DNA of 21,621 bases from a virus, in the IMG/VR virus record IMGVR_UViG_3300021165_000468, positions 1 through 21,621 of that record, one strand, 5' to 3'. The position numbers were made by a program, and so were the translations under genes. The notes under the pieces are model-generated. The model saw only the letters and a program-made list of their open reading frames with translations. It was not told the DNA's origin and ran no database searches. Shown here one piece after another: positions 3,353-5,640 of this stretch (position 1 is the stretch's first letter; every line of letters begins with the position of its first letter).

Positions 3353-5467
3353 GTGTTGGACCCAAAGACCACCCTCCCCTCCGATCCTGCTACCATCCGG
3401 CGCGATCTGGAATACATGACGCGGCATTGGCATGAACTGTCAGAGCGCCCCATGATGGAAATCCGCGCCCTAGGCGAGGGGATGCAAACGCAATCCGGCA
3501 AGTTTGCTCTGGATTGGATGGATGATGCGATAGAATTTGCGGTTGGCATGAACCGCCTTGGGCGCAATGCGTACGCCGTGCGCAACCCTATTCGAGAGCG
3601 GTCAAGCGGCTCTGCCAGCGACACTGACATTATCGCCGCCCGCTACCTCTGGGCTGACTGCGATGACCCCATAGCTGCCGGGAATGTGCTGCGCTTTGAC
3701 GGCCCGAAGTGGACCGCTGCGGTCACAACCGGGAAAATCCCTAACACCCGCGCCCATGTCTATTGGGAATTGAGCGAATGGTGTTATGACCTCGATCAAT
3801 GGCGCGCGATGCAAACGACAATCGCCGCCCATTTCGCCAGTGACCCCGCCGTGATCAACCCCAGCCGCATCATGCGATTGGCCGGAACCATCACCTATCC
3901 CGCCGCCCAAAAGCGGGCGCGCGGCTATGTGTCAGAACTTGTCACCCTCAACACCGATTACAGCGAGCCGCGCTTGCCCGTCACCCTGGACCAGATGGCC
4001 CGCGTATTCGGGTCGCGGCAGCCCGCCCGCCAAACGCTATCGCAGCAAGCCGTTGCCCGCGTGGCAGCGCCCCCCGGCGCATTCCAGATCGACACAGGCG
4101 GAACGGGGCCAAGCCTGAACCGCGAACAAGTCGCCATTCAAGCCCTAAGCGGCCAAGACTGGCACAACGCCGTCATTCGCCTTGTCGCGTCCTACGTCGC
4201 CAAGGGCCTGACAGACCCCGAGATACACGCCCTGACGCAGCCATTGACGCTGCCAGGGTATACCGGCGACCAGACCGCGCAAGAGGTGCAGACCGCCATC
4301 GACGGGGCAAGGCGTAAGGGCTGGACGCCAACCGAATACGCGCGGCCAGAAGCCATCACCCCGCCGCCATCAGACCAACAATTTGACGCAGCCCCACGGC
4401 CAAGCGATCTGGAATGGTTCGACGACATAGAGGCTTCAACCGAAAGCCCCTATATCATCAAGGGCGTTCTGGACATGGGCGCGATGTCGGTCGTCTATGG
4501 CCCATCCAACAGCGGCAAAACCTTCTTCGCCCTTGATCTGGCCTATCACGTCGCCATCGGGGCGGCATGGCGCGGGCGGCGCATCAGACAAGCCGCCGTC
4601 CTATATCTGGCCGCAGAAGGCGGCAGAGGCGTCAAGAATCGCTTTGTGGCCCTCAAGCAATCCCACGGCATCCTTGACGTGCCTATGGCCCTACGCCGCG
4701 CGGGGCTTGACCTGCTGCACGGCCAAGCGGACCTGCAACACATTGTGGATCTGGTGGCAGAGGTTAAGGCGCGGTTGCCGGACGGCCCCGTGCTGGTGGT
4801 GATCGACACCCTTTCGCGGATCATGGCCGGGGGTGATGAAAACAACGCCGCCGATATGACGGCGCTAATCCGCAACATCGACGCCATCCGCGAAACCACC
4901 CAAGCCCATGTCATGCTGGTACACCACACCGGCAAAGACACGGCGCGGGGCGCGCGGGGCCATAGCAGCCTACGAGCCGCCACCGATACAGAGGTCGAAG
5001 TCGGCAACGAGAACGGCGCACGGGCTGCGCAAGTCACCAAGCAGCGCGACAACGCGGGCGGCGAGACCTTTCCCTTCAACCTTAAGAACGTGACCTTGGG
5101 TGTTGATCAGGACGGCGACGAAATCACCAGTTGCGTGGTCGAAAGCCAAGACGAGGAAGAACACGCCGCCAAGGTCAAGATGACCAAAGGGTTGGGCGGT
5201 GTTCAAAAACTCATCGCGGAAACCTTCGACCAGATGATCGCGGAAGGGCTTGGGCGGTCCAACCCAGGCGGGGTTGGGATGCCAGAAACCGGCGCATTTT
5301 GGGCGGTTGAAAAGGCTGAGTTGCGCCGGATCAGCATGGGGAAAATTACCGCTTCGGACCCAAAGAGCAGCTTCAACAAGGCAATGATCGCCTTGACCTT
5401 GGATCGCGGGCTTTTCTGTGCCGGGGAAAACTTGGTTTGGCGCACAGACAGGAAGTATAACAAATGA
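3353..5467 (+). CDS. Primase-helicase fusion (RepB-type primase, RepA-type AAA ATPase), 704 aa
   Basis: It starts at a GTG (3353) with AGGA about 8 bases upstream. Residues about 30-230 look like a RepB-type archaeo-eukaryotic primase: YLWADCDDP supplies acidic metal ligands (Asp102, Asp104, Asp105) and NPSRIMRLAGTITYP is the later conserved segment. A linker at about 230-350 contains FQIDTGGTG (244-252). The C-terminal part is a RecA/RepA-like hexameric helicase ATPase with Walker A GPSNSGKT (383-390), Walker B LVVIDTL (Asp485) and VHHTGKD (His524/525) as the sensor strand. It probably opens and primes the phage origin. The repeat-hairpin array begins in its 3' end and continues downstream, a natural place for the sites it acts on. 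Its stop overlaps a small frame by ATGA. Confidence 0.88.
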   Translation: MLDPKTTLPSDPATIRRDLEYMTRHWHELSERPMMEIRALGEGMQTQSGKFALDWMDDAIEFAVGMNRLGRNAYAVRNPIRERSSGSASDTDIIAARYLWADCDDPIAAGNVLRFDGPKWTAAVTTGKIPNTRAHVYWELSEWCYDLDQWRAMQTTIAAHFASDPAVINPSRIMRLAGTITYPAAQKRARGYVSELVTLNTDYSEPRLPVTLDQMARVFGSRQPARQTLSQQAVARVAAPPGAFQIDTGGTGPSLNREQVAIQALSGQDWHNAVIRLVASYVAKGLTDPEIHALTQPLTLPGYTGDQTAQEVQTAIDGARRKGWTPTEYARPEAITPPPSDQQFDAAPRPSDLEWFDDIEASTESPYIIKGVLDMGAMSVVYGPSNSGKTFFALDLAYHVAIGAAWRGRRIRQAAVLYLAAEGGRGVKNRFVALKQSHGILDVPMALRRAGLDLLHGQADLQHIVDLVAEVKARLPDGPVLVVIDTLSRIMAGGDENNAADMTALIRNIDAIRETTQAHVMLVHHTGKDTARGARGHSSLRAATDTEVEVGNENGARAAQVTKQRDNAGGETFPFNLKNVTLGVDQDGDEITSCVVESQDEEEHAAKVKMTKGLGGVQKLIAETFDQMIAEGLGRSNPGGVGMPETGAFWAVEKAELRRISMGKITASDPKSSFNKAMIALTLDRGLFCAGENLVWRTDRKYNK

Positions 5468-5640
5468 AATCAACACATTACAACATACCGGGGAAAACGC
5501 GGAAAACATCACCTTTTCCCCCTTTTCCCCTGTTTGGCAATGCTGAGTGGTTGCCGGGGAAAACGGGGAAACTCCCTTTAGGGGTTTCCCCGTTTCCCCG
5601 CCCCCGCAGCCGGTCCGTTTCCAGTGGTCAAAAAGCATGA
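5464..5640 (+). CDS. Short frame across the repeat array, 58 aa
   Basis: An ATG at 5464 overlaps the primase-helicase stop (ATGA), and the TGA at 5638-5640 overlaps the next gene's ATG at 5637. Stop/start coupling at both ends is what a real operon gene here would show. However, the product (MKSTHYNIPGKTRKTSPFPPFP...) is simply the translation of the repeats, with low complexity and many Pro, Gly, Lys, Thr and Ser residues. It may serve only to carry ribosomes through the hairpins to the next gene. It could be a genuine small protein; I cannot tell. Confidence 0.35.
   Translation: MKSTHYNIPGKTRKTSPFPPFPLFGNAEWLPGKTGKLPLGVSPFPRPRSRSVSSGQKA
5490..5530. repeat. Imperfect 17-bp stem-loop in the repeat array
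   Basis: Bases 5490-5506 and 5514-5530 are inverted repeats with 15 of 17 positions pairing around a 7-base loop. Each arm contains two GGGGAAAA-type units. Confidence 0.7.
5555..5600. repeat. Long 20-bp stem-loop with TTTA loop in the repeat array
   Basis: The left arm (5555-5576) pairs with the right arm (5581-5600) over 20 base pairs with only two single-base bulges on the left side, closing a TTTA tetraloop. Each arm has two GGGGAAA-type units. There is no terminal T tract, so an intrinsic terminator is unlikely. Confidence 0.8.

Follow-up and report, generated by a model that had tools for sequence, protein, structure and literature searches.

A candidate self-specific phage replication origin behind a primase-helicase gene encoding a predicted winged helix

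The alpha protein of phage P4 is a primase-helicase with a C-terminal origin-binding function, and its system carries iterons. For the SaPI Rep and SCCmec Cch2 proteins, an origin of short repeats lies directly behind the helicase gene and is bound by the C-terminal domain of the helicase, and SaPI Rep is thought to bind as two hexamers (PMC7581432). The pRN1 protein ORF904 combines a primase, a helicase and a winged helix and needs a stem-loop origin located behind its gene; its authors, who also discuss P4, drew attention to a similar stem-loop behind the replication gene of phage BIP-1 (PMC4234260). The start motif of the RSF1010 primase RepB' is a GTG lying 3' of a hairpin (PMC4434180). 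Kazlauskas et al. described proteins in which a primase, a RepA-type helicase and a winged helix are joined, and raised the possibility of origin recognition by the winged helix (PMC5862659).

The DNA analysed here, referred to as the window, is a whole virus record of 21,621 nt. It encodes a 704-aa protein for which the AlphaFold model has a mean pLDDT of 84.5 and matches both the RSF1010 primase RepB' (3h20, E=5.8e-10, TMt 0.48) and the RSF1010 helicase RepA (1nlf and 1g8y, TMt 0.67-0.69), so that the comparison with RSF1010 made in the initial annotation is apt as far as the protein is concerned. RepA (1g8y, E=1.5e-5) was also the best helicase match in a PDB sequence search. A Pfam search of the protein yielded neither a primase nor a PriCT match, and residues 85-179 showed a weak sequence match to the PrimPol AEP structure 6zp9 (E=0.014). 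The last 90 residues are predicted from the model to form a winged helix; Foldseek gave weak matches of this domain to CRP-type winged helices, and a PDB sequence search with a C-terminal profile found nothing relevant. Coordinates of the protein domains and of the DNA elements are summarised in Table 1.

Table 1. Features of the primase-helicase gene and the candidate origin (positions in the window)
Feature	Position	Strand	Basis
Primase-helicase-winged-helix initiator gene, 704 aa, GTG start	3353..5467	+	ORF; AAA_25 E=6.7e-40; AlphaFold model matches
N-terminal RepB'-like archaeo-eukaryotic primase domain, ~residues 1-325	3353..4327	+	3h20 fold match; range inferred from match length
RecA-fold (AAA_25, RepA-like) helicase domain, residues 351-530	4403..4942	+	Pfam; 1g8y sequence match
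Predicted C-terminal winged-helix domain, residues 616-701	5198..5455	+	AlphaFold secondary structure H-E-H-H-E-E
Predicted recognition helix, residues 670-684	5360..5404	+	AlphaFold model; 671, 672 and 676 track iteron sequence
Exchangeable cassette: helicase, winged helix, origin	4331..5636	+	Comparison with L004
Single CCGGGGAAAAC copy, inside 3' end of helicase gene	5421..5431	+	Sequence
Iteron pair GGGGAAAAC GCGGAAAAC, array 1 left side	5490..5507	+	Sequence
Inverted iteron pair CTTTTCCCC CTTTTCCCC, array 1 right side, without CTWWAG core	5513..5530	-	Sequence; TRF
Iteron pair GGGGAAAAC GGGGAAAC, left arm of core dyad	5556..5572	+	Sequence; inverted repeat
Core CTTTAG, hairpin tip of dyad	5576..5581	.	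CTWWAG between iteron and inverted iteron in relatives
Inverted iteron pair GTTTCCCC GTTTCCCC, right arm of core dyad	5584..5599	-	Sequence; fold
Next gene, 193 aa, unknown	5637..6218	+	ORF; L004 identity resumes at its start

Each of the described systems shares part of this arrangement. As for SaPI Rep and Cch2, the iterons lie directly behind the initiator gene; however, the helicases differ, since Cch and SaPIbov1 Rep carry DUF927 and Cch2 and SaPI5 Rep are of the D5 type, whereas the window protein is RecA-fold and RepA-like and is accompanied by a conserved CTWWAG dyad. The window shares with pRN1 ORF904 the order primase, helicase, winged helix and the stem-loop behind the gene, but pRN1 has an SF3 helicase and a 100-nt stem-loop without iterons, as against an AAA_25/RepA-like helicase and iteron arms flanking a short core. 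RSF1010 shares the folds of the RepA-like helicase and the RepB'-like primase, and likewise combines iterons with hairpins, although RepA, RepB' and RepC are three separate proteins there and the window encodes one fusion with the predicted winged helix at its C-terminus. Phage P4 alpha differs in having a TOPRIM primase and a helicase of another family. In domain order the protein corresponds to the PrimPol-PV1 supergroup and PrimQH, which also join an AEP primase, a P-loop helicase and a C-terminal winged helix; cognate repeats, residue-base tracking and a hairpin core, as found here, do not feature in the accessible portion of that account (PMC5862659).

The repeats and the two hairpins occur as the initial annotation had claimed, and its coordinates for the inverted copies are correct to within 1-2 nt. 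CCGGGGAAAAC starts at 5421, 5488 and 5554, with spacings of 67 and 66, and no further copy was found in the 21,621-nt record with one mismatch allowed. The shorter word GGGGAAA/TTTCCCC is present in eight copies within 400 nt around the helicase stop (shuffle maximum 3), and all four copies of TTTCCCC in the window fall within 5515-5593. Both arrays occupy the 170-nt gap 3' of the primase-helicase gene, ahead of the ATG of the next gene. In array 1 (5490-5530), two GGGGAAAAC-type units (5490-5498 and 5499-5507) stand opposite two inverted units (5513-5521 and 5522-5530), and in array 2 (5556-5599) two units (5556-5564 and 5565-5572) and two inverted units (5584-5591 and 5592-5599) are placed around TCC-CTTTAG-GG. 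Folding of 5550-5604 as ssDNA reproduced the 20-pair stem with TTTA at the loop tip that had been noted earlier (-21.6 kcal/mol, z -4.8, equalled in 0 of 200 shuffles), and 5485-5535 forms a weaker stem (-9.3, z -3.1). Upstream of its ATG, the next gene has an uninterrupted frame that begins with a GTG at 5547 and runs across the core hairpin, but this stretch (5547-5636) is probably not coding because conservation with the related locus L004 begins only at the ATG at 5637.

Scanning of viral and genome contigs yielded 336 loci at which the helicase gene is complete and sequence downstream of it is available. A significant 7-mer repeat was present directly downstream of the helicase at 111 of 148 non-redundant loci, and the same test applied to three control regions was positive at 2/149, 6/135 and 2/126. 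The repeat word varies by lineage: the window and L005 have GGGGAAA, Roseobacter phage CRP-831 has GTATAAA, Rhizobium phage 16-3 has CGTGACA and Idiomarinaceae phage 1N2-2 has CGGTACA, and many further words occur. A single 400-nt stretch holds 10 of the 11 copies in CRP-831, where the iterons lie at ~3885-4035, 15 of 25 in the 50 kb examined of 16-3 and 8 of 12 in 1N2-2. The initial annotation would have been refuted by relatives with the same helicase but no such repeats, and the outcome is a different one: most relatives carry other repeats in the same layout. Cumulative GC skew, another check proposed, has its minimum at 9,983 with a range of 180 and is uninformative either way; in the window and three named phages the skew is dominated by gene direction.

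Among viral contigs the exact word GGGGAAAACGGGGAAAC was found in three, L005, L006 and L007. The L005 match is a real helicase-origin locus, the L006 sequence ends at the repeats, and the L007 match was rejected as a coincidence in coding sequence. At two further loci, L062 and L381, a gene-sized stretch has been inserted, and an array (CTACATA) with a CTTTAG hairpin lies intact 998 nt after the helicase stop, which suggests that the origin forms a separate unit. Not all helicases of this kind have the layout: Mycobacterium phages Dove and PenguinLover67 gave helicase matches, but repeats are missing downstream of the gene. A clade extending from L094 to L128, with proteins of the same domain layout ending in ...NPRSTYKQAVDALIGAGHMVINDGHVWFTDNEGKCKN, showed neither iterons nor a CTWWAG hairpin in the sequence around the gene, and its origin has been lost, has moved or is of an unlike kind. 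A separate sub-family (L153, L154, L156, L022 and L024) has a different C-terminus (SWIDNAIIAVE and similar), and its downstream repeats are in a single orientation (e.g. CTTCCGC 0/9), without a dyad.

The centre of the dyad is much less variable than its arms. CTWWAG lies between an iteron and an inverted copy at 43 of the 95 non-redundant loci with repeats, with no other XYWWY'X' class exceeding 7, and read on the helicase strand it is CTTTAG in 40 cases and CTAAAG in 3. Stem pair 2 beside the core is complementary in 38 of the 43, with all four pair types represented (shuffle maximum 28). Variant centres occur in 1N2-2 (CCTATATAGG) and PB15 (CCTTATAGG), and the distance from the core to the next ORF has a median of ~49 nt. 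CTWWAG also adjoins genes of TOPRIM and Prim-Pol primase helicases (L071, L087, L124, L150, L207 and L236) and, at L172, that of a helicase without a primase domain. Searches of open-access literature text found no description of the core or of a residue-base tracking code. That the core is nearly constant while the iterons vary points to a shared, unexplained step of helicase loading or melting.

Evidence on how the iterons may be read was obtained from 67 non-redundant helicase-origin pairs, for which 242 helicase and C-terminal columns were tested. Ranked by mean information on the repeat bases, the first three of the 242 columns were residues 671, 672 and 676, all of which fall on the predicted recognition helix. 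The G located 11 nt before the core is present in 34 of 41 pairs with a basic residue 671 and in 1 of 26 otherwise; this pairing was spotted by eye before its test, and a scan of single residue-base pairs placed it fourth, or second with residues grouped. When the helicase domain, excluding the C-terminus, was used to build a tree, residue class switched independently 10 times, with the base matching in ~8 of these and opposing in 0 (median p=0.008). Overall, pairwise similarities of C-terminus and iteron are weakly correlated (partial r 0.11), and this correlation was set aside as too blunt.

A natural exchange bears on the same relationship. The DNA of the window and of L004 is 94.6% identical up to 4330, shows no match over 4331-5636 and is again 90% identical from 5637, with identity resuming exactly at the ATG of the next gene. 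The repeats of L004 also differ from those of the window (GTGTGATGA/TTCACAC); in this pair, the helicase, the C-terminus and the repeats have been swapped as one cassette. A search with the L004 helicase matched itself only. Together, residue-base tracking and cassette exchange indirectly support a C-terminal domain that would recognise the iterons.

The repeats behind the primase-helicase gene are thus almost certainly a replication origin, as judged from sequence comparison, and the 170-nt gap would very probably be a self-specific phage origin with iterons read by the predicted winged helix of the upstream gene itself. The initial annotation had taken this region for the phage origin, a call which is strongly supported because most relatives have iterons and a dyad directly after the helicase gene (repeats at 111 of 148), because the predicted recognition helix tracks the repeat bases and because the cassette was exchanged with L004. 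A possible sequence of events can be outlined. The predicted winged helix would read the 8-9-bp GGGGAAAAC iterons, as residue-base tracking suggests, and the two tandem iterons in each of the opposed arms could seat two helicase assemblies facing one another across the CTTTAG dyad. The dyad would then melt or extrude between the assemblies, the RepA-like helicase would load on the exposed strands, and the fused primase would start synthesis, which probably proceeds both ways. The helicase would be inherited and exchanged together with its reading domain and the iterons as a single specificity cassette around a nearly constant CTWWAG core. More tentatively, and with considerable reservation, the locus may belong to a family of origins, widespread in phages and prophages, at which a RepA-type helicase needs no separate loader and loads itself at a near-invariant CTWWAG dyad. 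Recognition helix and iterons would there co-diverge into many private address codes readable from sequence.

The initial annotation had further assigned the hairpins as primase sites, and it is conceivable, albeit unlikely, that within such an origin they act as single-strand start sites for the fused primase, in the manner of RSF1010 ssiA and ssiB. The RepB' fold of the N-terminal domain is compatible with that role, and the strand bias of the core suggests a function in single-stranded form. However, a similar core accompanies RepB'-like, Prim-Pol and TOPRIM fusions and a primase-less helicase alike, and this independence of primase type argues against the assignment; RepB' starts at a GTG outside its hairpin (PMC4434180).

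Slightly less probable again is that the repeats serve as operators, by which the winged helix would regulate transcription of its own operon or of the next gene, with the hairpin serving as an RNA element. Winged helices are often repressors and the repeats immediately precede the next gene, but they lie behind, not before, the gene of the presumed reader, and helicase-linked tandem and inverted arrays are the usual layout of an origin. No terminator-like site was found and T-runs after the hairpins are few, so that a terminator reading was rejected, and Rfam at a relaxed threshold returned sub-threshold chance matches of microRNA type, with no family above threshold. The units are short and simple, as would be expected of low-complexity or chance repeats, or of a mobile repeat element with no part in replication, but this can be dismissed with near certainty given the contrast between 111 of 148 loci and 2-6 in the control regions, that between 43 of 95 for CTWWAG and at most 7 for other classes, the residue-base tracking and the covarying stem pairs.

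If the origin reading holds, sequence alone gives the origin position in many tailed phages and prophages with a replication start that was so far unknown, and the tracking provides evidence for the earlier survey's suggestion of origin reading by the winged helix that follows RepA-type primase-helicases. Since the ~67 non-redundant helicase-origin pairs carry different words, they amount to a natural specificity experiment which renders the initiator recognition code directly testable. Such private codes are also relevant to competition among phages and satellites; a phage nuclease directed against PLE satellites reportedly targets origin iterons.

Elsewhere in these records, the large terminase frame of L004 (L004:7007-9001) contains an insert resembling an intein (CLPGDEVVW...FIAGSGCIVSNC), which is absent from the window terminase (9115-10581). 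The left end of the window (1-96) consists of a 15-nt tandem repeat in 5.4 copies, also discernible as a 45-nt unit, which on the minus strand reads as pentapeptide-like repeats (LDGVRLDGASLVGAS).
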